DNA of 48,581 bases from Chrysophaeum taylorii (lineage: Eukaryota > Sar > Pelagophyceae > Pelagomonadales > Pelagomonadaceae): positions 1 to 48,581 of the forward strand of contig JAQMWT010000378.1 of NCBI GenBank assembly GCA_029834535.1. The letters run 5' to 3'. Each line of letters starts with the position of its first letter. Position 1 is the stretch's first letter. The notes beneath the pieces are model-generated. The model was not told the origin of the DNA and did no database searches. It saw only the letters and a list, made by a program, of their open reading frames with translations. The translations under genes and the position numbers were made by a program. Shown here one piece after another: positions 10,617-31,741 of this stretch.

Positions 10617-11014
10617 ACTAACTAACTAACTTCGGACCTCTCCTGAGGCATGGGAGCCAGAGCATGGGAGCCAGACCGGACCGGCAGGAGCCGATCCGGA
10701 ATCACAGAGGAAAATCACGCAGTTGGGGCAGAGGCGAGGGACGAGGACTGGTTGATGGCGGACCGCCACTGCGCGCGGTCTTGTGCGAGGTCGTGCGAAG
10801 GCGTCGCAGGCCGCGGACGTGTTGGTCCACGAACAATCGACCTGTCCGTCGCGTTCTGCCCAACCGAGCGAACCCCATCCTAGCGCGGACTTTCCGGGTG
10901 CTAACCGGCCAGCCCGGGAGGCGAGCAGGCACCGTCTCACTCCGGGACGGCCGGGGCCGCCGCAGGGAGCAAGCGTGTTAGGCGCCGTCCTCCATCGCAA
11001 CCATACGGTTAGCG
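10617..11014 (-). mobile_element. LINE-like 3' end, copy R2 (5'-truncated)
   Basis: It is homologous to 6128-6516 along nearly its full length. The minus-strand 3' end shows the LAQDRAQWR block, then GC-rich hairpins, a 14 bp local duplication of CATGGGAGCCAGAG, and a clean terminal TTAG repeat (10617-10632 as plus-strand ACTA units). The short-repeat tail and 5' truncation support a non-LTR retrotransposon. Homology to R1 ends near 11014, just before the presumed leader of element C. Confidence 0.5.
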
Positions 11015-11835: not shown

Positions 11836-13996
11836 ATGGATATAAACGCAGACGTGCGTGAGGAAGAATCTCCTCCAGTTCTTCCCGCCGCCCCTGAGAT
11901 AGGCCGCGAGGAAGGTGAATTAAGAGAGGCCGAGGCAGTCGACGTTGCTGACGTGCCCCCTGATGTGCCTCCGGATACTGCCATTTTTTCGCCGTTGAGT
12001 CCAACGACTCCGGATCACTCCGGATCCTGGCGAGCGTGTTACTATTGAGCGCGGATCTGCAGCCCGAAGTCGACTTCGTGAAGACCTCGAGCGGAGACGT
12101 CGCGAAAATGAACGATTAGCTGAGCTTTTTGCTCGTGAAAGGGCTGAAGCGACAGAGGAAGCGGCTCGACGAGAAGTTGATATGCTCAATGATGCATTAC
12201 AGCAGGAGATTGAGACAACGAAGACCCTACGTGAAGAGGCTGAACGATTTCGTCGTGAACGAGATGAATTGTTAGCCGAACGTACGCGTCGGGAGAATAG
12301 CCGCGAACAACCCGTGAGTCGACCCGAACCGGAAACGCCCGTGAGGCCGCCTGGACCGGAAAGGAACACTGAAACGGGGAATGAACCTCCGCCCCGAGTC
12401 GATACGGAGACTGAGGGTAGGGCGGAAGCTGAGAATGAAGGTACGAAAATTTTACGGGAATTATCGCGGGGAATATCGGAGACGGTCGCGGACGCCTTCG
12501 AAAAGGGCAACTTGAGCCGATCCCGTCGCCCCACCTCCAGTTTGAAGCCTGACAACCTCAAACTCGTCATCGACGGCCGAGATCAACGGCAATTCAATTT
12601 GGATTCGGCAGCGATGATGCATACTTTAGCAGATGACCATTGCTCGGTCGAGAAATTACGTTACTTACTACCCGTGCATCTACGGGATACCGTTGCGCCA
12701 ATTTTTGTGGAGCATTTGCGGAAATACGAGGAGCTCTGCGATGAGCTACCGCTCGGTCCGTCGTTTTATTTGAAATTGGGTGCTGACGACGAAGAGCATG
12801 GAGCCTCGGTTCGTCGCATCCGTCGTCTTAATAAGACGTATTGCGATAAAATTATGGATTAATGTAGATCGACCTGCCGACCTCCGAGCACGCAGCAGGA
12901 GCTGCTCGATTAGCTGCGGAAGGTCACTCAGTCTTCCGTTCCGAAGAAGTCTGGGGAGCGGCAGGTACAAACGTATTGTACCACATTTCAAAGTGAAGCT
13001 TTGGCTTTTTGTACCGTGTCCAGCCGCACGATGGATGACGTTGATATCCTCGACCAGCTTATCAGTGGTTTGGCGTCCAAGGAGCTGCGGACCCATGTGC
13101 GGTCTATGAGGAGCGGACATCCGGATAGTTACTTGACTTTTAAGTCGTTGGTGGCGCTTATTGCGCGACTCGAGAACGACTTGCGAAAGTTGATGGAGGA
13201 GGAGAAGGACCAAGGGCCTCCCAATCCGAAATCAAATAAACCGCCGCGAGGGCGGGGAGGTCGAGCTATGACTTCCGATCAACAAGCTAAGCCGGATGCG
13301 GATAAACCGTCTGGGAATACTGTTCCGCTGATCTTACGAGATCCTTCTTGGTGGTGCAAGAAGACGTGCAAGGAGTGCGGATTCTATTGGTCCACCCATG
13401 ATGAAGATGAACACGGAAATCGCGTGGTTTGCAACCGCGATCCGGACCGTTATCACTGTGCGATGTGGAAGCGCATTCGGAAACAGAAGAAGCAACCCAT
13501 ATCGCGCTCCGATTGGGAGAAGCGTGATGATGCATCTAATGCGCACGCCACGCGCGGATCGGAGCCTACTAATGAAACCCAAACTTCCCTCACCGAGCTT
13601 GGAACCACAATGGCGACCATGGTGAGCGAGGTCAGAGGCATCAACGATAGCAAGTCGTCTTCTACACGACAGCGAGACGGACGATCACCTTCTAAACGAT
13701 CGTCGCGCCGACACCGAAGTAAGAGCCCTGATCGAAAGGCCAATACTCCTACAACAAGCCCGAGCCCCCGCCGTCGCCGCCATAGCTGGAGCTCTAGTCG
13801 CAATTCGCGCCGGCGCAGACGTCATCGACAGCGCGATGACGAATATGACGGAGGCCGATATCAGGATAGTTTGGGACATTCGAGCGCAACTTTCGCGTTC
13901 CAATCTCTATGCGAAGCGCCGCCATCGTCGGGAGTTGTCTTTTACCCGACGGCACGCCCCGCCCGAGTCTCCGATGATGGTGCCATGCCGCTCTGA
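11836..13996 (+). pseudogene. Element C gag-like gene (frameshifted)
   Basis: The first frame starts with ATG at 11836 and is acidic and Pro-rich. A shift near 12025 leads into a long Arg/Glu-rich coiled coil (about 12025-12330) and a capsid-like region ending at TAA 12860. A third frame (about 13001-13996) has the helical DILDQLISGLASKELR block typical of Ty3-like capsids, then a Cys/His cluster near 13355-13465 (WCKKTCKECG, later C and HC) that could bind zinc, and a long Arg/Ser-rich tail resembling an SR domain. At least two frameshifts and extra stops occur. It would form the particle and bind RNA. Confidence 0.6.
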
Positions 13997-14010
13997 CGAG
14001 CAGCCATCGC

Positions 14011-15800
14011 TTGCAACAGGAGCAAAATACCACCAACGCTCGGATCGTTCGGTGGCCTTCTACATCGTATGTGGAAGCAATATCAGATGCAACTTTGGAT
14101 TCTCTGCGCTACTGGGAAGACTCAGACTCGGAGTCCGACGAACCCATGCCGCAGGTTCCAGTGTCCCCCCATTCTTCAATGTGTGTGTCTTGCAGGGCAG
14201 TTCCCGATGATGACGTTAGACCTTTCGAGTTGACGTCGGGGACGACGTCTTCTTTTCCTACGGGGCCCCCCGATAATGTTTTCGCCGATACAGTTTTGGT
14301 CGCAGCAGAGCACACCACAGCAGCGCCGATGGAGGAGAAGTTGACGGGAATGTCCGATTTGATGGACGAGAAACGAAAATTATCAGAGGAGATAAAGGAG
14401 GAAGTATATGTGCCTCCGATTGAGACGTGTCAGAGTTTATTGTCAGCGAAACTGGGGAATGAGGAAGCAGCCGAAGCGGCGAGCGCCAATATAGATTCAG
14501 AGGCGAGATGTGGAACGCCAGATATGGCAGCGGTGACGATGCAGATGCCGGGCGATGCGAAACCGGAGATACGATGTCATCACACTGCACTTTCGCCGAG
14601 CGATGGGGAAATGATCGAGCAAGACCTCATCACCATCGGCTGTTTGGACCCTGGTACACTTACGTTCATAGTTGGTCATACTTACAGACGACGAGACGGG
14701 CCGAAGTTCGCAACGACTTTAGGCGTGGATGGAATGGCTGATGTCTCCTATATTTGTCGTAGGATGGTCGAAAAACTGACAAGGATAATATCATCCTTGA
14801 CCGAGGAGATCTTCCAGTCGAGCGCACCTTGTACGGGTCAGGATTGAATAAGGCGACAATCCACAAATGGGTCGCATTGCGGATTGCGCTCGCGGACGAT
14901 GTCGCCGTTCCAGTGGTTGCCATTGTGGCCGATACTAATCACCTATTTCTGCTGGGAGTGCGCGATACTCGGGTGTTGGGAGCTATAGTGGACTACCCGC
15001 GAAATCGCATTGCGTTTCTCCGCACACAAGTCGCTTATGGGCGTAAGAAGTTAAAGGTGCAGGATCGACGAGTCGATTCTCCGATTTTGACGTTAAAAAC
15101 AACTTATGACGAACGCAACCCCGTGGTAGTTCAGGTTTATGGGCAACAGCACCATGCGATGCAAAAGAGCCTGAGCACAGCTGAGAACCGAGTTTACGCT
15201 CGCTTGTGCAAGATTGAAGACCTCCAGCGTCCACCGCCGAAACGAGCGGCAGCTTCGACGACTTGGGGTGTCCCTACAGTTACGCCTTCTCAAAGTTCGA
15301 ACAGCGATGCTTATGAAGTGATAGCCTACGCTACGCGCACGATAAAGGTCGAGCCTGGGCGCACTTACTGCGTGCCAGTCGCTCTTTCAGAGCCCATGGT
15401 AGTTTTCGTTGCTACGTCTTCTGGATACGAGCAACTTGGGGTAGTTGATGGAGTGTGTTCTTCTCCTGAGGATCATAACAAGTTCGCAGCTCGAGTGGCG
15501 ATCTCCTCTACCCAGGATGTGCCGACCGTGATTACTCAAGGTGAAGTTCTCGCTTTGGGCGATATTGTTCGTTTTGATGACGAGCTGAATGCTGAGACGG
15601 TCGACGATTTAACGAAGGATGGTGAAGCCGAATATGACAAGGCTAGCCTATCATTCACTGTTTCGGTCGCAAGCCATCTGACTCAAGGCGATGCGGCTCC
15701 CGAACCGGTGCTTTTGAGCTCGGTGCAGAAGGCGTCTCCTTCTGCCGATAAGAAGAATAATTCTCGTCAAGAATCGCTCGGTAACGACGATTTCGACCGA
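14011..15800 (+). pseudogene. Element C aspartic protease region (one frameshift)
   Basis: The first frame (14011-14847) is an acidic linker ending in a retropepsin start: the region around 14725 reads VDGMADVSYI where VDTGASVSFI-like sequence is usual, so the active-site Asp is present but the following residues are unusual. The frame then changes between about 14770 and 14800, and the second frame (to 15803) continues the fold with LDRGDLP, a W-V-A-L-R-I strand and LLGVRDTRVLGAIVDY, which fits the ILG.D.L...A..DY end of Ty3-like proteases. A long acidic linker follows up to the TGA at 15801. It would process the polyprotein if intact. Confidence 0.55.
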
Positions 15801-15803
15801 TGA
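15801..15803 (+). promoter_or_regulatory. In-frame TGA between protease and methyltransferase (element C)
   Basis: The frame of 14829-15800 and that of the methyltransferase (15804 onward) are the same, separated only by this TGA (CGA TGA ACT). The same situation exists in both copies of element A and in copy 2 of element B, in unrelated local sequence. Confidence 0.45.
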
Positions 15804-16502
15804 ACTGACGAGGAGGAAAAGAAATGCCGACAAGTTACAGAAGGCGATATTCGCCGAAGGTTTGAAAAGGTCAACTGGGGGCTGATCACGCGCAAGGTTG
15901 TGATACTCAATAGCGGCGCCGGAGGAAGTACTTTGGGACTGCAACGAGCGAATGAGTTGTGCGGGACGTCATTTCGAGTCGTCCTTGCTCTTGGCTCTTC
16001 AACAGCTGCCAATAAGATTCATCAGACGAATTTTCCGAAGATACCTGTGGTTCAGCACACGCTCTGCGGACGATATGACTCGACCCTCCGATTGATCAAG
16101 GCTTATTTGCCTGAAGCGGAATGGTCATCGTCGATGTGTATAGCGTCTCCACCCTGCGTTCATTCAGCACTCTGCAACTTGACATCCAGAGATGTTGGCA
16201 GGGGAGTTACGGCCACTACTTGGACGATGAAGCTGTGCAAAATGGCTGGCTTCATGATGTGGCTGATAGAACAGGAGGCGTCCATTATTTCTTATATAGC
16301 GCGCTTACACCCTTACGTGTACGTCGTCAATTTTCATGATATCACGCCCACTTTGATGAGCTCTCGCGTGCGATTGTTGGTTTCCAGTCACCCACTGCAC
16401 TTGCAAGAGGCTCCGAAGACATGCGCGAATATGCCACAAAAATTTGCTGCAGCTTTAGGTTACGCTCATGAACGCCACCTGCTCCAGCTGAATAATCTCG
16501 GC
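15804..16502 (+). pseudogene. C5-cytosine DNA methyltransferase-like domain of element C (3'-truncated)
   Basis: The frame reads motif I as NSGAGGSTLGLQ (SGAGG at 15912-15926), a NFP..PV block like that after motif II, motif IV as ASPPC (Cys codon 16155-16157), motif VI as WLIEQE (Glu codon 16269-16271) and motif VIII as SSRVRLL (16359-16376), with Ser in place of the first Gln of QxRxR. Order and spacing fit the C5 family. About 40 codons after motif VIII it is cut by element B at 16502, so the target-recognition region and motifs IX-X are absent. It would transfer a methyl group from S-adenosylmethionine to cytosine in DNA. Confidence 0.75.
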
Positions 16503-18110
16503 TCCGGGAGCCTGTGCTTCACAGCGATGACGAGCAATAACCGGTTTGTGGCGAGCATCGCGGTCGGTGAAGATGTGGCATAAAAGTCAATGCCGACACG
16601 TGCCAAGAAACCTCGGGCAACTAGACGAGCATTATAGCGGTCTGGGGTGCCGTCAGCAAAATACTTGATCTTCAGCACGAGTTTCGTCGAGATAGACGAA
16701 CGGTCTGGCGGTAAAGGTTCGAGCTTAAAGACGCCGTTGGAGCACAAGCCTTCAATTTCCTTGCGAATCGAAGCAATATGCTTAAGCTTGTCTTCTTCGC
16801 TGTGTCCTTTGAGTTCGACAATCTTTTCAGGCTCATAGACAACGTCATCAGCAGTCACGAGTTGTAACACGAGTAACACGACTTGGTCGATGTGCTGCAA
16901 GTCATAGTCCATGACTTCTTGGAGAATGTCTTGATTCGGATCACTTTGACTTAGAAAGAGGTGTCCGAGTTCGCCAGAATCATGCATGAAGGCGTGTCTG
17001 TGACGAGAAGCTAGGTGGTAGTGCTGATGCGCTGAGATGTCCCATAAGAGGGAGGAACTCATATAACAGAATTCTTGGTTCCATTGGCGCGCATAGTACT
17101 CTGCCGGTGACAGTTCGTCGTGGCATACACAGTTCTCGAGAACAGAATTGTCGTTGTCTAGGTGGTCGACCCAGACAGATGAGTGGTACGGCTTCCTTGG
17201 GAAATCAACGTACAAGAGTTCTGCGTCGGTTTCTCTCTGCAGATCCAGTGCAGTTCCGCCCATGATACCATAGTCCTGAGTGGTATTTGCGAGGAGGTAT
17301 CCTGTCGGAACATCATCTGGCGGCTTAGCGTCCCTTCTAATGTTGAGATCAGATGCGATGCTGGCGGCATGGCCCTGGTGCAGAGCGCTGACACTAATGA
17401 GAAACATCAATGTGCTGCACATGTTGGCTGTGGCGCGAGCCGTGGGTTGCTCCAGCTGGTATTTCCAATTGCGACCATACTCTGATGCGATGATGCGTCT
17501 GGTGAAAAGTTTTCCATCGTCGACACGTTTCACGATATAGAGTTGGTCTTTGGGAATACGGAAACCGCGTTCGTCCTTGAGATCTGCCTTGAGTTTGTCA
17601 CTCTGGTTGCGATGCACGAGGACTGGAGTAGAACCTGAATCATCGAGAACAACCTCTAGGCGATCCTTTCGCTTGGGCACCGGAATGCTACCGTCTGGCG
17701 GAGGTGGCCGGTTGAGGAACGAAAAATCCTGTTCAGGTGTCTCGTCGCTGACGGGACTTGGATCAGCAGCAGAGGTCGGATCTAGTTCTTTATGCTCTTC
17801 GTCATCATCGGGTTTATCATCCTGGTCGTTATCATGAGTCTCGCCGTCATTTTGCGATTCCTGTCTAACTTCTGGCATTAGCTGCTCGCTTACAGCTGGG
17901 TGCGGGTCATCTTGCCGTGCCTCTGCTGGGATCTGTGCGTGTGCTTTGATCCGCTCGATCTCATTGTTGCGGTTGATTGGCATGTCTGCATCAACGTGGA
18001 AGTCGTTCGAGGTGACGATTTTTCCATATAGCCCTTGATGTACAAGCAGAAAAGAGCTGTGAACATCACGGATAAATCGGTCCGTGCCGGGGAGGTTCGG
18101 GTGATAGTTG
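16503..18110 (-). pseudogene. Element B copy 1 integrase C-terminal linker and start of reverse transcriptase
   Basis: An open frame runs 18184-16466, of which the part below 16503 is antisense element C. It starts in the region after the integrase core, passes an acidic linker (DDDEEHKE), a block on RNQSDKL and TARATANM, and enters a Ty1/copia RT: KLVLKIKYFADGTPDRYNA, then LVARGFLARVGIDF and TSSPTAMLATNR. This corresponds to the N-terminal third of copia RT; the catalytic Asp residues are beyond the truncation. The intact frame of more than 500 codons suggests a fairly young copy. Confidence 0.8.
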
Positions 18111-19313
18111 TCAATGTGGAAGTAAGAGGCGGAGACGCTGGAGGGTTCCAGTTTGTGACTTTGAGGATAGACAAAGGTGACCAAAGGGGAGGAGCTTCAG
18201 GAGTTGTACCGTGGGTGACATGATGCGCCGGGGAACAGTGCAAGTCATGCTATTGCGCGAAGGCATTCCACGAGAGCGCTGATTGTCTGCTTGGATCCTA
18301 TGCAGTAGAGCAAACGGGTGGTAATACTCGGCGCCAATAGGCTTTCCTTCGATGCGGACGCTGCGCAGGTTAAGGAGGCGGACCACAATGCCTCGTGTGA
18401 TTTCCTTAATGATGTTTTCCGCGAAATTCCGCTGGTGTAGGTGGCGACCAATGATTTGAAGCTGGATACCGAGTTGTACCTTGAGCGGGTGGAACGAGCG
18501 GAAGGTGGAAAAAGCATCAGGTGATATGATTTTCACACTTACATCGAATTCGACCTTAATCACATTGACCACGTAGAGGATGCCGGCCAGAACGCCCTGC
18601 GCGTCCAGTCTCCGCAGGGAGTATACCCATTTGTGTGCCGAAAAAATACACACGAACTGCATGATGTATCGGAAGCTACCATAACATTTGCTGATGCTGG
18701 GATATGAGACATCCATGTGGAGATGTTGGCCAGGGGCGTAGGCCAGTTCATCCTGTGACCAGGAAGAGTTCTTATGACTGAAGCTAACATGCGGTTGACA
18801 GCGCTTGCATTCGCTGCAGTCTTGCAGATACCGATCATCACCTGGGCGGAGATTCGTTACATTAGCGGCAATTGTGCGGCGAAGAATCTCGGGTTGTTGG
18901 TGGTGTATGCGGTGCCAGCGAGTGACCAAGAGCACTCTTTTTGCGTGCTGAATGGTGCCGGGCTTGTGCAAGGGGGGCAGAGCGGCAGTCGAAGTCCGAG
19001 GAGGAGTGTGTCGCTTGTCGACTTGGATTTTAGCAACTGTGGCCTCGGCACGTAGCGTCTCGAGGTTTTTCGAGTTGCTTGGCTTGCGGATCGCAGCATG
19101 GTGAGCATCTGCAACAGCATTGAAGAGGGAGGCGAGGTTGAGGTCCTCCACTGCTAAGAGACGGCTGGAGATGTTCAAGAAGGATTCTGCAACCTGGTTG
19201 CTGTCTCCGGGGCTGGGAATGCCATTGCGCATGGTTGCCCATTCGATGTGAAGGTTCACGTGGTGATACGATTCATGGAGTGCGAGGACAGCGCTGTACT
19301 TAGCCTGCAGCAT
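18111..19313 (-). CDS. Element B copy 1 methyltransferase end, HHCC zinc finger and integrase core
   Basis: The frame opens with motif X overlap just upstream, then a spacer, then the pre-integrase zinc finger: WHRIHH with two His about 28 residues before CSECKRC. The DDE core follows: first Asp in HMDVSYP, second in IISPDAFSTF, Glu in NFAENIIKE. The spacing fits copia integrases. It would insert the cDNA. The frame is one base out from the upstream 19912-19256 segment because of a single base loss near 19410 relative to copy 2. Below about 18230 the C-terminal part moves into the overlapping frame that continues as RT. Confidence 0.75.
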   Translation of the reverse strand: MLQAKYSAVLALHESYHHVNLHIEWATMRNGIPSPGDSNQVAESFLNISSRLLAVEDLNLASLFNAVADAHHAAIRKPSNSKNLETLRAEATVAKIQVDKRHTPPRTSTAALPPLHKPGTIQHAKRVLLVTRWHRIHHQQPEILRRTIAANVTNLRPGDDRYLQDCSECKRCQPHVSFSHKNSSWSQDELAYAPGQHLHMDVSYPSISKCYGSFRYIMQFVCIFSAHKWVYSLRRLDAQGVLAGILYVVNVIKVEFDVSVKIISPDAFSTFRSFHPLKVQLGIQLQIIGRHLHQRNFAENIIKEITRGIVVRLLNLRSVRIEGKPIGAEYYHPFALLHRIQADNQRSRGMPSRNSMTCTVPRRIMSPTVQLLKLLPFGHLCLSSKSQTGTLQRLRLLLPH

Positions 19314-19985
19314 GTTGTGCGGGACGGCGTTGGCCAGTGCCTTGAACGCGAAGTACGGCGGATGCCGTTGGAACAGGCGGAGCAGTTCCGGGTCCGAGTG
19401 GTGTCCAACTTTGCGATTTCAGTGAGGGTCGCGTATCGGATGTGGTCGGGAGAGATCAGCAGTAATGCGTTGGAGTAGCTCGTGTTGGTTGGGTACGAGC
19501 CAGTGACCGAGTAGCACTCTTTGGATTTCTGGAGCGTGTCGCCGATGCGGCCGACGTAATCCGCGTAAGTGGGACGTGCTTCGGACATTATGAGTCCCGT
19601 GGGGTCATCGAGAGTAATTCGCCCTCGTGAATCGATCGCGGCAACGCCGGGATGCGAGCGATTCATGTAGTGGACCCACGTGGAGGGGGGCGAGCAGCTG
19701 TGAGCGGCTGCGAAGGAGTCGGTATAGGCGACGACCAGAAAGGCGGTGCCCTTGGGAACACACATCCAGGGAGAAGGTGTGCGTTGGGGAGAAGACGGCG
19801 GGTTGGTGTGAACAGTCCAATATCTTAGGGGGCCGTGAATACAAGGTGAGGGATGCGCGCGGGAAGTAGCCACATACGACGGCGGTGGCGGCAGTGCCGG
19901 CGATGGCTCCATCTAAATGACAAGCACATTGGGACTCTGAGGCGTGAAAGCAGCGCAGTGTGTTCCAGGCGGTGAGAGTAGGGTG
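19256..19985 (-). pseudogene. Element B copy 1 methyltransferase C-terminal part (motifs IX and X)
   Basis: The upper end is separated from the 439-codon frame by TAA 19986-19988, where copy 2 has CAA. Copy 2 supplies the alignment. The segment reads TWVHYMNRSHPG, ITLDDPTGLIMSEARPTY, then motif IX as IRYATLTEIAKL and, after a one-base frameshift near 19410, motif X as ALANAVPHNML (about 19327-19350). These fit the R-x-(L/A)-T-x-x-E-x-A and GNAVP blocks that close C5 methyltransferases. The distance from motif VIII is unusually long. Confidence 0.65.
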
Positions 19986-21305
19986 TTACGACCAATGGTT
20001 TTGCAGCAATGTAAATGCCAAGAGATGTGAGATATTGGTCATCGAGGCATAGGGGGTGCCGTCGGCGTCTAGTCCTAGATCCGTGAAGGGCTTCTTCAAG
20101 CGTGCAAGCATTTGGCAGATGCGTGCATTCTCGGAAATCGAGAGTTTAGCTGCGTTGGCGGGTGCGTATGAGAATGTGGCTTTGTTCTGGTAGTAGTCCA
20201 ATGTTGAGCGGGTCACTGTGCCACGAAGGGCGGGGTTTGCTATCCAGGGATCGTCGGGGATAGTGTGACTGGGGTCTAGGAGGGGAACCATGCTCGGAGG
20301 AGATATTATCAAGGGAGAAGCGGCTTTCTCTTTAGTGTGACTGGGGTCTAGGAGGGGAACCATGCTCGGAGGAGATATTATCAAGGGAGAAGCGGCTTTC
20401 TCGAGGTTGTCGCCGGTGAGCGGGCGTCGGGCAAAGACAGCGAGGTGGCGGTTCTTGCTTATGACGTCACCGAAAGCGGAGGCATTGTAGACACCGGAGT
20501 GTCTGAAGTAACCCATGCGCTGATAGCATTTGGCGAGCTGGGTGTACTCGTGGTGGGTTCGCGGGTTTGGTGGTACATTCTCGACAATGGTGTATGTCGG
20601 GAGCGTGCAACGAACAAAGCGGATTTGTTCTTTGACGAAAAGGTCGGCGGTCACCGGAGTGGCATAGCCGTCATAGTCTTTCATTACACTCAGATGCTGA
20701 CAAGGCAAGGTGAAGACAGCCAGGTGAAGTAGAGGTAGTCGTATTTTGCCGGTTTGCAGAGCGGCAGTGAGCTTCCTTAGACCCGCATGATGCAGAGCGG
20801 GAGGGAAAAGTTGCTGCGCGCGGGCGCGCATAATAGGGTTGATTTCACAGGTGGCCCCGACAGTGATGCGTTTGTCGAGGTGTTTGCGAAAAGAGTCAAA
20901 GCCTTCTTGGTGGAGTCCACCTGCAATAATGGCCGTGCGTAGCGGAGGGGGTTGTGCTTGCACAGAGAGGTCCGCTGAGCCAGTGAATGCATATTGGACG
21001 ACAGTACGCGGCAGGCTGATTAATTCCATCAAGAATATAGAATAATGCTGTAATTTGGCGAAATCGAGGAGATGGGATTGCGAGCGCGTCTTTGCGAACT
21101 TCTGCGTTATGTTTGAGAGCTCATCCTGGAGGGACATTTTCGTTCCGGGGTGGAAACTAAACACGGCGCGGAATGTTTGCTTTGGATGGGATGGCAGGGA
21201 CAAGAGACTATTAGTTTGGCGATTGGCGAGAACTACTGCGGTTGTTCCGATAAGTGTTTTGTACTCATGGGGATCTGATGTGGAGGTGGTCAGAGGTTCA
21301 TACAA
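19986..21305 (-). CDS. Element B copy 1 C5-cytosine DNA methyltransferase, motifs I-VIII
   Basis: This is a clean 439-codon frame. Residues count from its first ATG at 21305, although the domain proper follows MSLQDEL at residue 57. Motif I is IIAGGLHQEGF (about 126-136), motif II TCEINPIMRARA (152-163), motif IV TLPCQHLS with Cys202 (codon 20702-20700), motif VI IVENVPP with Glu242 (codon 20582-20580), and motif VIII a weak FGDVISKNRHLAVFAR (278-293) lacking Gln. This is the most canonical of the three methyltransferases: PCQ and ENV are textbook. It would methylate cytosine in DNA using S-adenosylmethionine. A 24-residue tandem duplication lies at about residues 302-349. Confidence 0.85.
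   Translation of the reverse strand: MYEPLTTSTSDPHEYKTLIGTTAVVLANRQTNSLLSLPSHPKQTFRAVFSFHPGTKMSLQDELSNITQKFAKTRSQSHLLDFAKLQHYSIFLMELISLPRTVVQYAFTGSADLSVQAQPPPLRTAIIAGGLHQEGFDSFRKHLDKRITVGATCEINPIMRARAQQLFPPALHHAGLRKLTAALQTGKIRLPLLHLAVFTLPCQHLSVMKDYDGYATPVTADLFVKEQIRFVRCTLPTYTIVENVPPNPRTHHEYTQLAKCYQRMGYFRHSGVYNASAFGDVISKNRHLAVFARRPLTGDNLEKAASPLIISPPSMVPLLDPSHTKEKAASPLIISPPSMVPLLDPSHTIPDDPWIANPALRGTVTRSTLDYYQNKATFSYAPANAAKLSISENARICQMLARLKKPFTDLGLDADGTPYASMTNISHLLAFTLLQNHWS
20261..20402. repeat. 72 bp tandem duplication inside the methyltransferase of element B copy 1
   Basis: Two nearly identical units with a 72 bp period (20261-20330 and 20333-20402) add 24 residues in frame. Copy 2 has a single unit, so this is a recent in-copy duplication. 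It lies after motif VIII and preserves the reading frame. Confidence 0.9.
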
Positions 21306-22053
21306 GTATGGTTCGTAGGGCAGCGGTGGATCTGTTGCTTGAACGTTCAGAGCTTTCAGTCGAGGGGTCGCTATAACCTGTAGACCTGGTCTGAAGTGCG
21401 GGACGACCAGAAAGACGAGGTATAATACGGAACCTGTGGAGTCTTTGATATCTTTGAGGAGAGGCCTGCAGCCTGCAAATACAACGGCTTGACACCGATG
21501 AACGTTCGCAGTGGGACGGGGTATGGCCGGGGGGCGAAGACGGAAGGTTATCGACGAGTTGGTTGTCAGTCACATCGCGGTCTCCTCGTCGCATGGCGAC
21601 AAGCTTGATGGTCACTCTCCGCCGACCGACCTTTCGGCGCTCCTCGTCTACAGGCCCGTGATTCCGGACTGGCTCCTGTCGGTCCGGCCTGGCTCCCATG
21701 CTCGGGAGAGGTCTGAAGTTAGTTCGTTAGAAGTGGCTGGTCAAGGTGCCTCTGCCCATGCGGATGGTATGTTCGGGGATCCTGCGTATGGACTCGGGAA
21801 CAAAATGTTGGATTGTGCGAGTGAAGCAAAATGATGCGCCACCGTCAATTAAAGAAATTTCAGTGCCGGGTCCATTGCATCCGTGCAGCGAGTTAGTCTT
21901 TGTGGGGGTCTTTCCTGTAGTGTAAGTGGCACAAAGAAAATCTGCGACTCTGGGGGAAAGTTCATATGATGTCGGGAAGTTCTTCATCATGAGGCGTGGT
22001 GCCTGATTTAGTAATTTTTGGTTGGCGGCACAGGCGTCGTCGGCAACCATCAT
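21306..22053 (-). pseudogene. Element B copy 1 aspartic protease, interrupted by a 227 bp insertion
   Basis: The frame starts at ATG 22053, overlapping the gag stop as TGATG. The active site region at 21832-21846 reads LIDGGASFCF, with DGGAS matching the retropepsin D-(S/T)-G-A-(S/T). After the insertion at 21503-21729 the frame resumes as GVKPLYLQAAGL and VLYLVFLVVPHFRPGL, like the YVP...NL end of copia proteases. Copy 2 lacks the insertion and gives the empty site. It would process the polyprotein. Confidence 0.7.
21503..21729 (+). mobile_element. 227 bp SINE-like or 5'-truncated LINE insertion in the protease of element B copy 1
   Basis: Comparison with copy 2 (around 34160) shows an insertion flanked by GAA at 21500-21502 and 21730-21732, possibly a 3 bp target duplication. 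Its last 70 bp (plus strand) match the 3' ends of LINE-like copies R1 and R2: the same GC-rich hairpin pair and a GTTA-type tail. The first 160 bp do not match R1 or R2. A body unlike the LINE with the same 3' end suggests a SINE using the LINE machinery, or a different LINE subfamily. Confidence 0.65.
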
Positions 22054-22060
22054 CGAAAAA
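22048..22060 (-). promoter_or_regulatory. gag stop/protease start overlap in element B
   Basis: On the minus strand CTTTTTCGATGATGG contains the gag stop TGA overlapping the ATG that opens the protease frame (-1 relative to gag). Copy 2 has the same arrangement at about 33862-33875 (CTTTTTCGCTGATGG). A T5 run directly before the stop could allow -1 slippage, or translation could restart at the overlapping ATG. Confidence 0.4.
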
Positions 22061-24219
22061 GCAGACTCTGGTGTAGAGCACGCATGTAGTCGCTGTGGCG
22101 TTGTGCGTAGTCTTCGGCGGAGTTGTCTTCATCATCTATTTCGGGGATATTATCGTCGTAGAGGCCTAGCTGTCCGTGATCATCATAGAAACCGAGGTGG
22201 CCTTGGTCATCTGCGTCGTCGGCTGCGCCCTCGTCGGGTGGATCATCCTGAGGATCGGATGATTGCACCTGAAGAAACTCGGCGGCGTCGGAATCAGCCT
22301 CGGAGAGAAGTATCTCATCGGAAATAGTGGTGATGAGGTTGATGAGCTTGGTCATGCGCTCTGAGTTGGATGTGTGTTGGCGACCGGCTTGACTAAGGTT
22401 CCGGATGATCTGGAGCTTGCGACGAACATCACGGAGGAGGACCTTGAGCCGTTGGTCAGGAGTGGATGGCTTTGGTGGATGGGTTTGGGTGGGGAAAGTG
22501 ACCTTGCGGATGTGCGGGTGCTCGCGTTTGTCTGGGGTGACAGCAGAAGCACGGGGGTTGTGTTTGTTCTTGGTTGGGGGTGACAGGGGTGGTGGCCTTG
22601 GGCTTAGGGCTGTCATTGATATCGTAGTACGACGGGGAGCGAGGATTTGGCGACTTTTCGGGGGGGGTCTTCGTCTGATGGCGGGACATCGGCTTCTTTC
22701 GATAAGCGTGTAGATGTAGGATGAGATCGGTGTCGTCATCTTGATCGAGGTTGGCTTCCGTGAGAAAGACATCGACGGGGTCGTTGTTTTCTGGGGATGC
22801 TTCGTCAGGATCTGGGGGAATTTCATCTTCAGGGGGTGACGTGTCGGCATCATCTTCGGTGAGGTGGAGGCCATGACGGCGGGAGCGAAAACGTGGGTTG
22901 TCTTTATCTTTGGTCGGCAGACGACCGAAATCAGTGACGAATCGCAACGGCTTGAAATTCAGAGTGGGGTGAGGCTTGAGGTGAGCCCAAAAGTTGCGCT
23001 CGAAAGTGGAGATAACCGTGATGCGGGCGATCAACTTGGGCAGATGGTTTATCGCTTCTTTGTCTTCGTCGAGTAACAGCGAGTCGTTGGGGGTGCGAAG
23101 GCAGTTGGCAAGACGGGCGAACCCTTTTATATGCGTTGGGGCGCGGGAGTCAAGCAAGCTTGGAGGATATTTGAACCGTAGGATTTGGTGGATTTCCTTG
23201 AGGATCATTTGGTCGGTAAGTTGGAGAGAGGCATCGTCGGTGATTTGACGAAGCTGTTGTTGAACGTGGCGCATATAATCTATATAATGCGCGGGTTCAT
23301 GGGTCTCTGGGTTGAACGGCGTGTCCAGGAAGGCACTGTAGACGTAGTGCGCATGGTGGACGTGGTTCTGGCCCGTGTGCTTGTCAAGTGCAAGACGGAC
23401 TTGTAGTACGAATTCGAGTCCTATCGGATGGGATGATCCGAGTGCATCTATTTCGTCGTATGCTGGGTGCTTGACGGAGTCGCTACCGGCATGCAGGAAA
23501 CGGCGAAAGAGGGGGTGCACGGTCTCGCGGAGGTACACGATGAAGTCGGCTTCTTTTCCTTGGAGGTGAGGTTGCGTGATCGGATATAACTTTCCTTTCG
23601 TCGTATCGGTCGTGTCTTTGTCTTGGTCTTTAAGTTCTTGGGGCTTTGGCTCATAGACGTTCTCAAGGAGGTGTTCGCCGAACTTCCGGTAGACGCCTTT
23701 GTAGTTGACGTAACGGCCTTGGGCGTCTTGTGTGTTGCCGGCAGTGGAGTGGTTATCGGGGTCCTTGTCATAGTCCTTGATGCAGTGGCTTAGGAGAGCG
23801 TCTGCTAGATCGTTAGATCCGCGCAAGACGGATTCCCACGCGTAGAAACCCTACAAGAAATACTGCGTAATGCCAGGTTCGGGCATGAGATGTTCGACGA
23901 ACAACTGCATAACTCGAAACGCGAGCATTGGGGGGGTGACTTGAGCGGTGTCCATTGACTTGAGTACGGCGCTAGGGGGGTCAGTGAAAGTGTTTGGCTT
24001 GGTCTTGGGGTCGTGTGGAGCTGGAGTGGGGGGGGCGGGGGGGGCTGCGGCGACGGTAGGTGGTGTCTGCACGGCATTTAGTCGTGCTTCGAGTGCATGT
24101 AGCGCCTGAGTTTGTGCTTGTATCACCGGAGCTTGTGCTTGCATCTCCCTTGTGTGCTTTGCCTCTATGCGAGCTTCTTGGTCTTTTATCTCCTTTTGGA
24201 GTTCTTGATTGGCTGGCAT
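22050..24219 (-). pseudogene. Element B copy 1 gag (one nonsense codon, one frameshift)
   Basis: Starts MPANQELQKE at 24219, matching copy 2 at 31742. The N-terminus is a Gln/Glu/Ala-rich coiled coil, then a Pro/Ala linker, then a capsid-like region. TAG at 23851-23853 replaces the CAG of copy 2. The frame then runs to about 22600, where a shift joins the frame that ends at TGA 22050-22052 after a C-terminal acidic tail (DDQGHLGFYDD). I see no CCHC knuckle. It would form the particle. Confidence 0.7.
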
Positions 24220-24303
24220 CTTGTTTCGGTTCGGGAACGTCAGGGAGCGGAACTCGTCTGGAAATCCTGGTACTCTGCTGATACCGGGACTGGTGCCCAA
24301 TAC

Positions 24304-24443
24304 CTAGAGAACACTGTCTCTAACAACGAGGACAGCACGGTGTGAATAACACAGCGTTTTCTTAAAATAAAAGGGCGTTAAGGTCAGAGAGCTCACCCTA
24401 GGATAGGGGGGTACTAACCCTAGACCAAATTTTGTATCTCTAG
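24304..24443 (-). repeat. 5' terminal repeat of element B copy 1
   Basis: The minus strand reads CTAGAGATACAAAATTTG at the start and ends TGTTCTCTAG, so the ends are inverted CTAGAGA/TCTCTAG. Copy 2 has the same ends (31461-31658) with about 58 extra bases internally. Homology between the copies begins exactly at this CTAGAGA, which marks the element's 5' end. It is short for an LTR and lacks TG..CA. A conserved GGGCACCAGTCCCGGTATCAG follows and may hold the primer site. Confidence 0.55.
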
Positions 24444-24689
24444 CTTGCTCGTCGCCATTCCACTCGTGGGCGAGAACAGTGGAATACCAGTTTCTTTTCA
24501 AAGCATCTTGCGCGTCTTTCTTCTTCCCGCGTAACTCCGGCGGCGGGCATCGCCCAGCGGTATGCACGAAATCCGGCGTTTCGTGCACCATCAGATAAAC
24601 TTCACCTTACGGCTTGTTTCCTGCACGTTTCGGCTTATCTTTTTTCTTATTCCCTGCACGTTGCAGCTTTTTCTCTTTCTTTATCTTCG
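24444..24689. other. Flanking sequence of element B copy 1, no supported gene
   Basis: A short minus-strand frame reads DFVHTAGRCPPPEL and KKKDAQDALKRNWYS. It has no family I recognise and runs into the element B terminal repeat. Otherwise pyrimidine-rich. Confidence 0.3.
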
Positions 24690-24938
24690 TTATTTCTGTT
24701 TGATATAAAAAGAAAATACGGAAGACTGGCAGGACAGACGCACATTAAACCGACAGGACAGACGCACATCGAACTTCCCGTTTTTTTCCGATCCGTTTAG
24801 TATGCAATATATACTGATATACTGAGCTGGCGACGACGGTTTCGCGAACGCATTAATCACCCGAAGAGCTTTGACAAACACCCTCTCTTCGAGGTGGCTA
24901 GTTTTTCGACCAAAGGATTTCTTCCTTCCTTTAGCCAT
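24690..24938 (-). CDS. Short basic ORF, hypothetical
   Basis: An 82-codon frame starting MAKGRKKSFGRK, strongly basic at its N-terminus with a predicted helix (EERVFVKALRVINAFAK). The C-terminal half contains a short direct repeat (DVRLSCR, NVRLSCQ) from the GACAGGACAGACGCACAT duplication in the DNA. It may be a decayed DNA-binding protein. Low support. Confidence 0.2.
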   Translation of the reverse strand: MAKGRKKSFGRKTSHLEERVFVKALRVINAFAKPSSPAQYISIYCILNGSEKNGKFDVRLSCRFNVRLSCQSSVFSFYIKQK

Positions 24939-25102
24939 TACCCCCGAAAAAAACCTGTACTTAACTACAGAAAAGTAAAACGCCTTGGAAGGCGTGTTCC
25001 GCTTCGTCTAGCGACCTTAGACTAACAGTACGCTTAGTAAACTTCCTGAATCGATTTCTAAACCGTGCACTTTCTGGTTCTAGTCACTGCAATGTGGCTG
25101 TA
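24939..25102. other. Short intergenic gap
   Basis: AT-rich gap between two small minus-strand frames. I see nothing in it. Confidence 0.4.
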
Positions 25103-25639
25103 TTAGTCGCCGAAGTCAAAACTGCCCAATAAATGGCCTCTACTCCGGCTTCTGCAAAATTTGCTTTTGGTCTTTCGGTATGTGAGACTCTCAATATGCT
25201 TCCTATACGTCTCGATCTGCCCTCTAAGCTGCTCTAGAGAAATGATCTTCGATACTCGCTTCAATGTTCGTATTGAAAGTTGGGGTGACTTTTGAAGCAT
25301 TTCATAAACATTTGGGGGGCGAATGTGACTTCGCGGGACAGTTTCCAGATACCCGCTCAGTGCGGCGTGATGCGCGATGCATCGGCGCTTCGTTCTCAGC
25401 TCGCAAAGGGCGAAGAATGTGGTGGCGGTGCTGCACGGGGTGCAGGAGTAGGTGGCTTGAGCCTTCTTGAACAGTGCACAGTGGGCGCGTGGGTTTGGCT
25501 TTCTCAAGCCTTTATCTTTGCTTTGAGGACGCGTTTCTTCCAGACGGGTGCGTGGAGAGAGGCTGGGGGACGTGTGATGTCGCAGAGAACGACCCCGATG
25601 AGACAGAAGACGGTGTGAAGGCGTTAAGATGGAGGACAC
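25103..25639 (-). CDS. Hypothetical 178-residue ORF, only the C-terminal half convincing
   Basis: The last 80 residues (RCIAHHAALSGYL, then NVYEMLQKSPQLSIRTLKR and LEQLRGQIETYRKH) look protein-like, with a possible helix-turn-helix followed by a short coiled coil. The N-terminal half is Ser/Arg/Pro-rich and probably not coding. I do not recognise the family; it may be another transposon remnant. Confidence 0.25.
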   Translation of the reverse strand: MSSILTPSHRLLSHRGRSLRHHTSPSLSPRTRLEETRPQSKDKGLRKPNPRAHCALFKKAQATYSCTPCSTATTFFALCELRTKRRCIAHHAALSGYLETVPRSHIRPPNVYEMLQKSPQLSIRTLKRVSKIISLEQLRGQIETYRKHIESLTYRKTKSKFCRSRSRGHLLGSFDFGD

Positions 25640-26053
25640 GTCCGAGGATGACGACGACGAGTGGCGAAGGCGAAAAGCAGACGCCTCGTCCTCCTCATCC
25701 TCATCCTCTACGTCCTACTCGTCTTCGGCAGCGCCAAGAGCACCAGGTGTCTCTCCCTCATCCTCAGTAAGCTCCACACAGACCTCGAGCACCCGGTACA
25801 ACCTCAGTCTCGAGTGTGTCACCATCGCGCTCGACGTCCCACAGGACCAGTCATCGACCTTGTCGACCACCACCACCAGCAATCCGCTTGACCAAAAGTC
25901 CTCCGAACCTCGGTCTTCGCCCAGGACTGGCCCAGTATGGACAGCAGCTGTTCTGCCGTGCCAATTTTCTTGCCGGCCGATTTGACAATCACGCCCGTCC
26001 GAATAGGTCGCCCGCCATGTCTGGCCATCTTCGCGAGGCCGCAACTCGGCCAA
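25629..26053. other. Overlapping open frames on both strands, coding status unresolved
   Basis: The plus strand has a 118-codon frame starting MEDTSEDDDDE followed by a Ser run. The minus strand has a 69-codon frame (MARHGGRPIRTGVIVKS, AEQLLSILGQSW) and an overlapping 112-codon frame. The minus-strand 69-codon frame is the most protein-like. The DNA includes TCC/TCA simple repeats at about 25688-25712. Confidence 0.25.
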
Positions 26054-26696
26054 ATCGACTCGAATCGAGAAGCGGCGCGGTTTGCAGTAGTGCGCGCGAC
26101 AACATCATTCTAACGGTGCTAGCCGAATGGCGCGCGACTTCGTTCCGTGTTAGCTACGAGCCGATTAAGTCACCTGTCGAGCAGGGCTCATGAGCACTAA
26201 CACAACACAAGTCACTTGACCTAACCACTCGCTTTTGGCCAAACAACTCAAGGGGCAGGAAAAAATGCCATCCTTAACACTACGTAGGTATGTAAGTGCC
26301 CCCGCCAGGGCCGGATTCGAGTTGTGGCGTAGGGGGGAATTGTGCCTACCTGGCTCACCTTCGAATCTAGGCTCGCCGCTCGCGTCCGTACCCTTGATCG
26401 AGTCACTGGACGTGGAAGGCCGTTCGCTCGCCACACAACCACAAACAACTTCCGTGCCTGGTCCTCACAACTTGAGGATCGGCTGTTGCTTTATAATTAA
26501 GATACTCTTGAATCACAGAAATCAGGGGGACACATGTCACGGAAAAGGAAGATGATGTCAGAGAGAAAACGGACATCATCAGAACGGAGTAGGGTGCCCC
26601 TGACAAGGGGGGCCCTAAAAGAGGGGTAAGCCTTAGGAGGCGGGAGTTTCCGCCACAGGACTCCCCTGGTGAGAATACGAGCTGCCCCAGCGAGCG
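26054..26696. other. Intergenic stretch, possibly a decayed LTR
   Basis: No supported gene. On the minus strand a stretch starting near 26605 reads TGTCAGGGGCACC and contains AT-rich TCTTAATTATAAAGC, somewhat LTR-like, but I cannot find a matching second copy, primer site or polypurine tract. Confidence 0.3.
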
Positions 26697-26946
26697 GCTA
26701 GCGCGAGGAGCGCGGCTTCGCCTTACGAGCATCTCGTGCACGAATCTTCTTGTAAACGCGGGTGATGATCGGTTCGGGAACGCGACCACTGCGCAGAGTA
26801 AACTTGGGGACCAACACATCGATCTCGTGCGGAGCGAAATCCGTGACTCAAGGAGTGGTGCTGGATAGGATCTTGGACTTGTCGGTGAAACTGCGACCGT
26901 CAGCGTCCTTGTACTCCGGCTTGAGCTTGCGGTTCGCAAGGTGTGA
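26697..26946 (-). pseudogene. Unidentified coding remnant with one in-frame TGA
   Basis: A minus-strand frame reads LANRKLKPEYKDADG, FTDKSKILSSTTP, TGA, VTDFAPHEIDVLV, then FTLRSGRVPEPIITRV and ends basic (KIRARDARKAKPRSSR) at TAG near 26697. The composition is clearly coding-like. I do not recognise the family. The upstream end abuts TTACTGTTCTCTAGGT, identical to the 3' end of the element B terminal repeat. Confidence 0.35.
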
Positions 26947-27575
26947 CTTTTACTGTTCTCTAGGTTTGGACCCATATTGCTCATCACGCTTGGTCGAACT
27001 AACGATCACTAATCTAATTATTTCGAGTCCCGTGACAAAGATACATTGGATATTGGACACAAAAACAAAAAAACGAGGATATAATAATTATACGCGCTTT
27101 AATGGATGATTAGAACTCGGACTCAATTTCCAACTCCGCGTCGACATGGCGGCCCGGAGGTCGACGTTTTCTTTCTCGTCGACGGTCCGTCGCTCGACGG
27201 TCCATCGCGCCGCGGTTTCCGCGGTCCGCCTACGACTGCCGGGGGTTTTGCTCCGCGCGCCCGCCCTGCGGTTGCAATTGTGATTTCGAATCTTATGTAT
27301 GCACAGGTGAAAACTCCTTGGGGATCTGGGGGGACCGCAATTTGGAACAATGGCGCGTGGCCCGTGTGGCTCGTGGCCACCTCGAGGCAAGGGTGATGGC
27401 TGCTGGGAAACGAGAGGGCTCCCAAAGTCGCAACAGTCGCCGAGAGGATGGGAAGCACCACGCTCGCCGGCCAAGCTACGCCAGAGGCAAGCAAGACACT
27501 CACTGGTTGTGTCGTCTGCCCGAAGACAAAAAGCGGCGGTGGGTAGTACAGCAGAGGAGTGGGTATCTGGAGGGT
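26947..27575. other. Stretch with overlapping frames, none supported
   Basis: Long open frames exist on both strands (for example 27088-27579 minus, 27318-27911 plus) but their compositions are Ser/Pro/Arg-rich and unlike proteins. The first 17 bases carry the element B terminal-repeat-like end. Confidence 0.35.
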
Positions 27576-29217
27576 TCACACCTCCATGTACCAGAGCTCG
27601 GGGATACTTTCTTCATCGAGGCGACGCTTGAGCCACGTTATCAATGGCTCGCTGCGGTTCGTGAAGTCCTCGTTGACGCAGGCTTCGCACGACCGGAGTC
27701 GCATATCGCTCTTAGGATCGGCGAGCGGATCTCCCTCGACAGATCCGTATTTGTCCCTCGCCCAGGTCATCTGGTCGCGGAGGTAGAGCTCGAGGTTCTC
27801 GCCAGCGCTCGCGTGGCCCACGTGCTGTTTCACGAGCTCCAACTCGGAGAACTTGAGCACGCGGCACATCCAGCCGTAGCTAGATGGCCGCGGGCTTCGA
27901 TGGTTCGGTAGGGGGTGTTGTCCATCCCAGCCTGCGCCGGGAAACATCACCGTTACAAGAGGAATTACCCGCACCTGCGGCCATGAACATCCGCTGCAAG
28001 TATCGGCGGAACATTTCGTCCTGCCAAGGCTCGCCGCACTTGACGCCACCTTCCTCGAACTCGTAGTGGCGGAAGAGCGGCCCTTCCGTTACGTTGTTGG
28101 GGGTGAAGTAGGTAAGCATGACGTGCACAATGCGCAAGACCGGGCACAACGCGAGGTTTTGGTCGTTGTGGTAGACGCGCTTATACTCCTTGCGGTTCTT
28201 CGTGTGGTGCACCTTGGGCGACTTGAAGACGATAAAGTCGGTTCTTCGTGTGGTGCACCTTGGGCGACTCGAAGACGATAAAGTCGGGGAGCCCTGTGAG
28301 CTCGTTCAGAATGTCGTTGCCGTGGTGGTCTTTGGGACGAGCAGGTTGTCGCGGATGTCGATGCCATCGTCCTCGGTTGGTCGGCCCACGTGGCACAACC
28401 CGAAAATGATCCGGAAAATCGCCAGATGCAGAAAGCACCTGATCGACGGTTGAGCGGATGCCTTCGAGATCCTCTCGACGGCACGAACACACCACCGATG
28501 AGCGCCAACGAGACGTCGAAGCCAACAACTGACGTCAAACCAGGGCGGAGGCGACACTTCGCGCGGCGTCTCGGTGATGAGAGCGACGTACTCTTCGTGA
28601 GGCCTCTCCTTGACGGTGCGTTTAACAGCCGGGTGGGTCCAAGGAGAACGAACAGTGCCCCAGACGCGTCCTGGCATTGCTCTTAGTGCACTCAACTGGG
28701 GCTGCATCGTGGACGGCACGAGTGCCTTCGCTTTAAGCGTTCCGACCACCGTATTGATAATGGGTTGGTCTTTTGTGAGAACACGGAAATTCAGATACGC
28801 AATCACCCAGGCAACGTGCGGAGGTTTGAGCGCAACAACGCCGTTTTCATCGAGCTCAAGCCAGGGGTGGCTCGTGAAGACTTCGTAGTCGGTCAACGCC
28901 GCGACGCGTTCGAACTCGATCCATATGTTCTCGCGCTTGCGAGAATACTGGTCGCTCCCAGCGTGCCCACTAAAATGGTCGCCGAACGACACGTGCATTA
29001 GGGTCCCAACACATGAAAGAAGCTCTTGTGAGTGCACGCAACTACTATCTTGGTGCGAATTGGGATTTAAGTAGTCGCAAGAAATAACCGAGTACCGACG
29101 ATCCGTTGCCCTTGCCAGAAACAAACATAGTCCATGGCAATTTGACCGAACTGACAACCTTGTCCCTCGAGACATTCGAACTGACTTTGGCAAAAAAAAT
29201 GTCATGGTACATTTCAT
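27576..29217 (-). pseudogene. Tyrosine recombinase-like gene (Crypton/integrase type), frameshifted
   Basis: The first segment (29217-28306) has a helical core-binding-like region: WIEFERVAAL, then PPHVAWVIAYLNFRVL and TMQPQLSALR. A 46 bp tandem duplication at 28194-28285 breaks the frame. The next segment (28212-27880) reads DQNLALCPVLRIVHVML, GPLFRHYEFEEGG and EMFRRYLQRMF, resembling recombinase catalytic domains, and the last (28049-27576) reads ELVKQHVGHASAGENLELYL, whose GH.S...N...Y pattern fits the end with the nucleophile Tyr. The box II H-x-x-R is not clear. Eukaryotic Crypton transposons carry such enzymes. Family assignment is inferred. Confidence 0.45.
28194..28285. repeat. 46 bp tandem duplication
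   Basis: Two 46 bp units (28194-28239 and 28240-28285) differ by one base. Since 46 is not a multiple of three, the duplication frameshifts the recombinase-like gene. Confidence 0.9.
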
Positions 29218-30373: not shown

Positions 30374-30707
30374 GGGACGAGAGGGAGAGGCGAGGAGCGC
30401 GAGCGTGTCGACGCCGAGATGTCGACGCCGATATGGCTAAAACCGAACTAATTAAACGATGATGCCGTTGAGGCCTCCAAACCGAGGCTAACCGCCTTGA
30501 ATTTCCCCAACAAAACGGTTCAAGCCCAACGGACGCTTCGAGTATCATATATTAAACATCCTATATCCAATATCAAATATCAAACTAAACATCATCGGTG
30601 TTCCTGCCGCGCCGGTACGGACGCAGCCGTTGCGCTCTCAGATCAGCCCGAATTAGCCGCCACCTCCTGCGACTCAGCACTGGACCCGCCAGCACAGCCA
30701 CCCGCGG
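30374..30707. other. Short intergenic stretch
   Basis: No supported gene. It contains an AT-rich segment with repeated ATATC/CATATATT words at 30545-30590. I see nothing else. Confidence 0.4.
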
Positions 30708-31030
30708 ATGGTCAACGACTTTGTCAAGCTGGGGACCGACTTTCTCTTGCGGGACCAGACGGCGACGCGGGCCGAGCCGGACGCTGAGTACACGAACTGG
30801 TGCTGGAAAAAGGCGGCCGCTACCTTCAACACGCCCGACGACGCCGAGCTCGACACGAACCTCTTCCTTAGCAAGGACGGCAACCACGAGATCTCACCGA
30901 TCTCACTCCGTTCCCCAGCCCTGGCCATGTCGCCAGCGCCACCACGATCAAGAAAAAGTTTGCCGACCTGCGCGCCCATATGCGCCCGCTTGACCTCTAC
31001 GCCCCTCTGAACTCCCGTTCCCGACCAGGA
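30708..31030 (+). pseudogene. Unidentified coding remnant
   Basis: The frame from ATG at 30708 reads MVNDFVKLGTDFLLRD, EYTNWCWKKAAATFN, DDAELDTNLFLSKDG, and after a frame change near 30900 continues LTPFPSPGHVASATTIKKKFADLRAHM and on. The first 70 residues have good protein composition. No family recognised; a transposon origin is likely from context. (The second segment is quoted in two parts: LTPFPSPGHVASATT and IKKKFADLRAHM.). Confidence 0.3.
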
Positions 31031-31460
31031 AAATGTGTATCTTAAGGTGTGCGGTCGCACGTTTAGGCGGATACACAGGGTTTGGGTGGACAACAGGCAG
31101 CAGCGGCCCGCGGCGCGTGCCGCGGCGCCCCGCTCGTCGCAATCCACGAGCGCAATGAGGTGATGACGCTTCACAACTCGTGAGACGGCCTCGAGCATCA
31201 TTTTCCGCTCGCCTCCTCTTCCCGTCGACGTCACCACTTGCGCGCTGGATGGTCTTAGCAGATTTGACCATTTCACTTTCAAGTTTGCCCTCCCCTCTAG
31301 AGAACGGGTTCGCGAAAGTCGCGAAAAAGGGACTTGGCAAATTTTGCGGCTTTTTGTAACTTTGATCCTGTAGAGAACGTTCTCTAGTTCAAGGCCCAAA
31401 CCCGGGGATCCCGTTATTAGGGCCGGCGCGGCAGGGCCATTGGTCGGTCGAGGGACTAAA
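31031..31460. other. Flank upstream of element B copy 2
   Basis: No supported gene. Contains the palindrome TAGAGAACGTTCTCTA near 31373-31388 and another TAGAGAAC near 31299. These echo the ends of the element B terminal repeat (TAGAGA, GTTCTCTA), so the region may hold remnants of an earlier insertion. Confidence 0.35.
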
Positions 31461-31658: not shown

Positions 31659-31741
31659 GTATTGGGCACCAGTCCCGGTATCAGCAGAGTCCCAGAATTC
31701 CAGCCGAGTTTCGCTCTCTGACGTTCCTGAACCAAACCAAG

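Follow-up and report, generated by a model that had tools for sequence, protein, structure and literature searches.

The window analysed here is the whole of contig JAQMWT010000378.1 (48,581 bp; C378 in our numbering) from the 70.8-Mb genome of the pelagophyte alga Chrysophaeum taylorii, and searches were run over the 697 contigs of this genome. The window contains two copies of a retrotransposon family, called element B, which is, judged from its sequence, a Ty1/copia long terminal repeat (LTR) retrotransposon with a C5-cytosine methyltransferase between the protease and the integrase of its pol polyprotein. Frames of two other methyltransferase-bearing elements, A and C, are found in the same window.

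Element B in the window and its class

Copy 1 of element B lies on the minus strand at 16504-24442, from a 5' LTR remnant to a truncated reverse transcriptase, as delimited by blastn against other copies with the LTR start read at 24442. The LTR remnant (24305-24442) has an internal deletion and is followed by a gag region (22459-24303), named by its position, with two open frames of 150 and 464 codons, for which no Pfam family was found above the cut-off. Next comes the motif LIDGGAS (21832-21852, in the open frame 21730-22128), which we take to be that of a protease, this frame having no Pfam match. The methyltransferase domain occupies 19311-20933 from motif I to motif X, the motif names in B frames being our own assignment. 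The frame 19989-21569 (527 codons) holds motifs I, IV (TLPCQH), VI (IVENVPP) and VIII within 20427-20933, and is closed by a TAA at 19986-19988. A target-recognition-like region with a 23-residue tandem duplication follows between motifs VIII and IX according to the alignment (19442-20426), and motifs IX (19409-19441) and X (19311-19343) are in other frames. The preliminary description of this DNA had correctly given the motifs and a single nonsense codon, but had counted one frameshift, where alignment to an uninterrupted copy gives two. Downstream of the domain there are an integrase region (18390-18905), whose HHCC zinc-binding motif and D, D, E residues we read as such, and a spacer with the start of a truncated RVT_2 reverse transcriptase (16469-18196, Pfam E value 4.9e-9). 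Directly upstream of the methyltransferase, copy 1 carries a 228-bp insertion (21502-21730), a repeat that is also present twice, inverted, in the copy L043 (97-98% identity).

Copy 2 is on the plus strand at 31462-39406, from the 5' LTR (31462-31657) to a truncated reverse transcriptase, again delimited by blastn against other copies. It repeats the same methyltransferase domain, as had been described, with several stops and frame changes over 34227-36310 (the end coordinate is that of the preliminary description), six of the stops lying within 34227-35324. Its RVT_2 frame spans 38529-39434 (E 6.4e-25), and homology with the copy L039 stops near 39406. Both copies in the window have decayed. 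What they have in common with other copies ends inside the reverse transcriptase, and blastn against other copies found no 3' LTR for either.

Copies elsewhere in the genome also bear on the class of the element. In L039 (on contig C96), a single frame of 1952 codons encodes methyltransferase, integrase and reverse transcriptase, with Pfam matches in the order DNA_methylase (E 1.1e-7), rve (E 0.0061, weak and under the cut-off) and RVT_2 (E 1.6e-38). Since rve covers residues 1016-1110 and RVT_2 residues 1686-1933, the integrase precedes the reverse transcriptase, which is the copia order, and RVT_2, the reverse transcriptase family that marks Ty1/copia, was matched in L039 as well as in both window copies. 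In L043, the only copy examined for an LTR pair (9,089 bp, including stretches resembling insertions of another repeat), the LTRs are 194 and 197 bp long and differ by four mismatches and one 3-base gap. They are flanked by TCAT and GTCAT, giving a target-site duplication (G)TCAT with all four visible bases alike, and their termini are TAGAGA..TCTCTA (TTTCTA in the 5' LTR), not TG..CA. The RVT_2 matches, the integrase order, the LTRs and the flanking frames therefore indicate a copia element whose pol order is protease-like stretch, methyltransferase, integrase and reverse transcriptase.

The methyltransferase domain, its copies and its constraint

The preliminary description that element B carries a C5 methyltransferase is borne out: motifs I to X, with PCQ and ENV, identify the domain by sequence, and PF00145 matches copy 1 with 25.2 bits (cut-off 22), the matched stretch ending at motif VIII. 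Of 39 distinct copies inspected (the 30 best by score and 9 others, six of these chosen because their frames are long), 11 read through the domain in a single frame, 6 of them among the 30 best-scoring. PF00145 matches nine of these 11 at E up to 0.01; PCQ of motif IV is present in all 11 and ENV of motif VI in nine, being lost in L050 and L046. The recognition region is about 310 residues long. The signature PCN of motif IV characterises DNMT3 enzymes. Motif IV of element B reads PCQ, not PCN, and no DNMT3 chain was found at E up to 1 in a profile search of PDB, in which the best match was HhaI (E 0.053, by itself only suggestive). Motif I of C5 methyltransferases has the consensus FxGxG, whereas that of element B reads AGGLHQEGF, a point against the cDNA methylation discussed below. 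AlphaFold models were of low confidence (mean pLDDT, the predicted local distance difference test score, 33.9 and 28.3).

With the window frame as query, the domain was found at at least 82 places in the genome (82 of 1763 candidates scored). The places were counted from 151 listed matches, many places being split over several of them, and a few may be counted twice on the apparently near-duplicate contigs C25/C521 and C10/C297. Among the best 62 of 147 reverse transcriptase matches, 29 have a match to the domain no more than 8 kb upstream in the same orientation, at a distance of 2.9-4.2 kb, and 34 have either such a match or a Pfam match. On the other side of the balance, 28 of the 62 have none in reach among the matches listed, which neither shows nor excludes a domain there.

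Five of the 11 one-frame copies are locally damaged: L047 is without motif I, L050 without the EN of ENV, L046 is shifted over ENV, and parts of the recognition region are shifted in L037 and L040. Over the 55 pairs of the 11 copies, the ratio of non-synonymous to synonymous substitution rates (dN/dS) has a median of 0.27 (range 0.13-0.67), the high values occurring at low dS. By region, using only pairs with dS over 0.2, the ratio is 0.15 for the core of motifs I-VIII (12 pairs, the five damaged copies left out), 0.20 for the recognition region (32 pairs), 0.18 for motifs IX-X (15 pairs), 0.24 before the domain (38 pairs) and 0.22 after it (29 pairs), compared with 0.13 for the integrase (17 pairs, 8 copies). 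For the reverse transcriptase, taken as a second control, there were three sequences, none of whose pairs exceeded a dS of 0.2. Pseudogene noise was rejected as an explanation by this purifying selection on the domain. The domain is thus an inherited, constrained part of element B and no stray host fragment, because it occurs at so many places, lies in one long pol frame and is under constraint like that of the integrase. Element B shares with the known DNMT-encoding retrotransposons a methyltransferase in the coding region, many copies and purifying selection.

Methyltransferases of other elements and of the host

The methyltransferase frame of element A (44402-46441, plus strand) reads SPC in motif IV and EMT in motif VI. 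Used as query, it gave at least 70 matches, from 65 of 1586 candidates scored. RVT_2 lies downstream of the A domain for 17 of 65, compared against 49 of 150 RVT_2 matches picked by hand, so element A is, on sequence grounds, also a copia element. Its integrase is 28% identical to that of B over 162 residues (E 4e-15) and its reverse transcriptase 30% over 113. Element C lies at 11999-16580 on the plus strand (also in L055 and L057) and carries its own methyltransferase with PPC, a short recognition region and EQE where B has ENV; in the window, its similarity to other copies reaches as far as its junction with the truncated end of B copy 1. The C frame 15804-16580 (plus strand) is below the Pfam cut-off (12.5 bits) and, as query, gave at least 147 matches. 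In the one copy read further, on contig C5, RVT_1 (E 6.9e-13) and RNase H (E 4.6e-26) come after PF00145 (23.7 bits) in a frame listed with 3067 codons and no stop. On the basis of these two domains, element C is classified as Ty3/gypsy. A further copia family, of which one copy was read (L059 and L060; C560:3200-7700), carries an A-type methyltransferase that is 47% identical to that of A over motifs IX-X and 39% over the recognition region, the integrase frames being 44% identical; its span and score are common to 39 of the 150 RVT_2 matches. By these domain matches, unlike retrotransposon families (copia A, B and the relative of A, and gypsy C) carry methyltransferases in one genome. The preliminary description was therefore right that such enzymes accompany unlike families, and also that the B enzyme is more canonical than that of A, because Pfam and a reference profile detect B and not A. 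Elsewhere in the window, a 259-bp direct repeat (6248-6506 and 10745-11003), its units 97% alike and spaced by 4,497 bp, may represent the two LTRs of another element, and three scanned minus-strand frames (28309-29220, 29048-30436 and 30677-31480) in the interval 24500-31400 between the B copies are without Pfam match at E up to 1.

The B enzyme had also been called independent of that of A, and this is not supported. In Smith-Waterman comparisons of four B copies with 200 shuffles each, B and A give z 3.5-7.0 (0 or 1 of 200 shuffles as high), while B and C give at most 1.3 and A and C 2.7. The best partner of A is B; against the other references A reaches at most 2.4, and against everything but B, including C, at most 2.7. 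In a second run with 300 shuffles, the z of B and A is 6.4 for the entire domain (no shuffle of the 300 as high), 5.0 over motifs IX-X, 3.4 over motifs I-VIII (3 of 300) and 0.5 over the recognition region. A tree joins A with B (support 95/93) and places C beside DNMT2 (86/74). C gives z 5.6 with DNMT2 and 4.4-9.3 with four bacterial enzymes. Since the similarity of B and A exceeds that of the shuffles and the two group together in the tree, a shared origin of their methyltransferases is probable and likelier than independence, and the methyltransferase of C may be of separate origin.

Several results weaken the connection of A and B. B compares with the enzymes M.SPR, of a Riemerella phage and of Nostoc at z 4.7-10.7 (M.SPR alone 5.7-8.2), which is equal to or above its values with A, and with the other four of seven bacterial and phage enzymes at -0.7 to 4.9. 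With a profile of B, neither A nor C nor the host enzymes scored above shuffled sequences, and long branches meet in the tree. Moreover, comparing the profiles of A, B and C with one another yielded no match, the profiles being made from few or near-identical sequences. As the profile comparisons gave nothing, the connection comes from the pairwise shuffles and one tree. The approximately unbiased (AU) test rejects none of the arrangements A+B+C (p 0.249), B+C (0.103) and A+C (0.357). In a tree without A, B groups with M.SPR, the Riemerella phage enzyme, Pan4 and DNMT5 (82/92), and in one without B, A joins C, DNMT2 and Acidovorax in a weak group.

As for the host, 84 light-harvesting matches in the genome mark it as an alga. 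For one such protein the best PDB matches, ranking after long chains of the entry 9vfj, are light-harvesting and fucoxanthin a/c-type chains, which suggests the chlorophyll a/c lineage. A DNMT5 is encoded on C621 (best PDB chain 7r76, E 3e-143, presumably Cryptococcus Dnmt5), where the methyltransferase match (L002, C621:15462-18998) falls within an open frame whose listed length is 2086 codons, and a DNMT2 on C634 (best PDB chain 1g55, E 3.9e-39). Both are C5 methyltransferases of the same genome as B, but B has no similarity to them beyond shuffles (z at most 1.9). Among the 57 PF00145 matches in the genome, 43 are at B places and two are DNMT5 and DNMT2. The remaining 12 include five that have a B reverse transcriptase downstream. 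Outside the genome, no relatives of B were found at E 1e-3 among the 7996 best candidates scored, none with the B profile at E 0.01 among the 7997 best, and none of C at E 0.01 among 772 candidates scored; in viral_contigs, a scan limited to two short peptide patterns found no relatives. Bacterial and phage C5 methyltransferases such as M.SPR and M.HhaI resemble the B enzyme in motif order, PCQ and ENV, but the latter has a longer recognition region and is part of a retroelement polyprotein.

Possible function and significance

DNMT-bearing retrotransposons are already known. PMC5890265 describes carriers of the LINE, DIRS and Gypsy types from dinoflagellates and from a charophyte, and the Copia elements of Symbiodinium are said there to be without DNMT. 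KnitGypsy-Dnmt3 of Klebsormidium nitens resembles element B as an LTR retrotransposon with a C5 methyltransferase in the Pol frame under purifying selection, but is a Gypsy element with a DNMT3-type enzyme, whereas B is a copia element with a PCQ enzyme; SymbioDIRS-Dnmt3 and SymbioLINE-Dnmt of Symbiodinium are likewise multi-copy retroelements with methyltransferases, but belong to the DIRS and LINE classes (same source). One sentence in the available part of PMC12344493 mentions DNMT3 members in 'LTR Copia and DIRS' retrotransposons and credits them to the 2018 paper, which describes Gypsy; such a case would match B as a copia element with DNMT, but differs in being DNMT3, and neither the PCQ type nor a position before the integrase appears in that account. 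The carriers named in the consulted portion of PMC6338049 are Gypsy and DIRS, and that of PMC9998398 names no such element. In the literature as judged by titles and the starts of abstracts, a scope outside which most subscription papers fall, no paper on a copia element with a PCQ-type enzyme was found. Compared with these descriptions, a copia carrier with a PCQ enzyme is new.

Because of the position in pol, the constraint and the recurrence of the domain, we favour the view that the enzyme acts on nucleic acid of the element itself. It would enter the element B particle along with reverse transcriptase and integrase and would methylate cytosines of the newly made complementary DNA (cDNA) before integration, and the methylated copy, resembling the host's own DNA, could escape a host response to unmethylated foreign DNA. 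Both the argument that the pol location places the methyltransferase with reverse transcriptase and integrase, made there for SymbioDIRS, and the cDNA-methylation reading come from the accessible text of PMC5890265, which also reports de novo CG activity of the SymbioDIRS methyltransferase in yeast. Taken as a whole, a copia element with an inherited, constrained methyltransferase that probably shares its origin with those of A and the relative of A and methylates cDNA is the best explanation, and we lean slightly towards it.

Base changes in the copies tell against it to some extent. In 25 triples of B copies, 92 of 6191 CpG sites and 231 of 16692 other sites carry the change expected from deamination, a ratio of 1.07 without overall excess. 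By triplet, given here without significance test, ACG (26/1171, 0.022) and TCG (29/1464, 0.020) have the highest share of transitions, and CCG (12/1469, 0.008) has the lowest value of 16. Furthermore, the observed/expected CpG ratio is 0.94-1.04 in nine B stretches and 1.13-1.46 in seven stretches of the host, a difference that may come from base composition; it is 0.92-0.98 in two A stretches and 1.17-1.27 in two C stretches. The absence of an overall CpG deamination footprint in the DNA copies would fit an enzyme that, like DNMT2, methylates RNA, either the element transcript or the tRNA primer, and stabilises or hides the template instead of marking cDNA, as RNA methylation has been proposed for SymbioLINE (PMC5890265, accessible text). 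This is rather unlikely, the domain adjoining the integrase in pol and having no special similarity to the host DNMT2. The same absence of overall CpG decay disfavours a second, unlikely alternative, in which the enzyme would set its mark on the new insertion, or on the genome of the host, and thereby restrain transposition, with less damage to the host, as a self-silencing kept up by the host DNMT5. Enzymes of the DNMT5 family maintain CG methylation, and the host does encode one. Restraint is also proposed in the text available of PMC5890265. Still more improbable is a passenger domain, or one that no longer catalyses and has another role such as DNA binding: the variant motif I and the motifs damaged or lost in L047, L050 and L046 are in keeping with this, but the core dN/dS is close to that of the integrase, and PCQ and ENV are conserved in all and in nine of the 11 one-frame copies, respectively. 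Finally, a chimeric host gene fragment in this copy only, the contrary case that the preliminary description had set out beforehand, is ruled out with virtually no doubt by the 82 or more places and the long pol frame, no point having been found in its favour.

Returning to methylation of the cDNA, hosts normally silence transposons by cytosine methylation, which makes it paradoxical that a transposon should keep, under selection, a methyltransferase of its own. The copia and gypsy carriers in one genome make the purpose of such enzymes directly testable across unlike elements in one host. More tentatively, we consider it possible, if rather speculative, that methyltransferases are standard equipment of the LTR retrotransposons of this alga, gained at least twice (in copia A, B and the relative of A, and in gypsy C) from sources unlike the host DNMT2 and DNMT5, in families of tens to hundreds of copies, and kept because cDNA must be methylated to pass a host check on unmethylated DNA. 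If true, this would be a eukaryotic parallel to restriction and modification.

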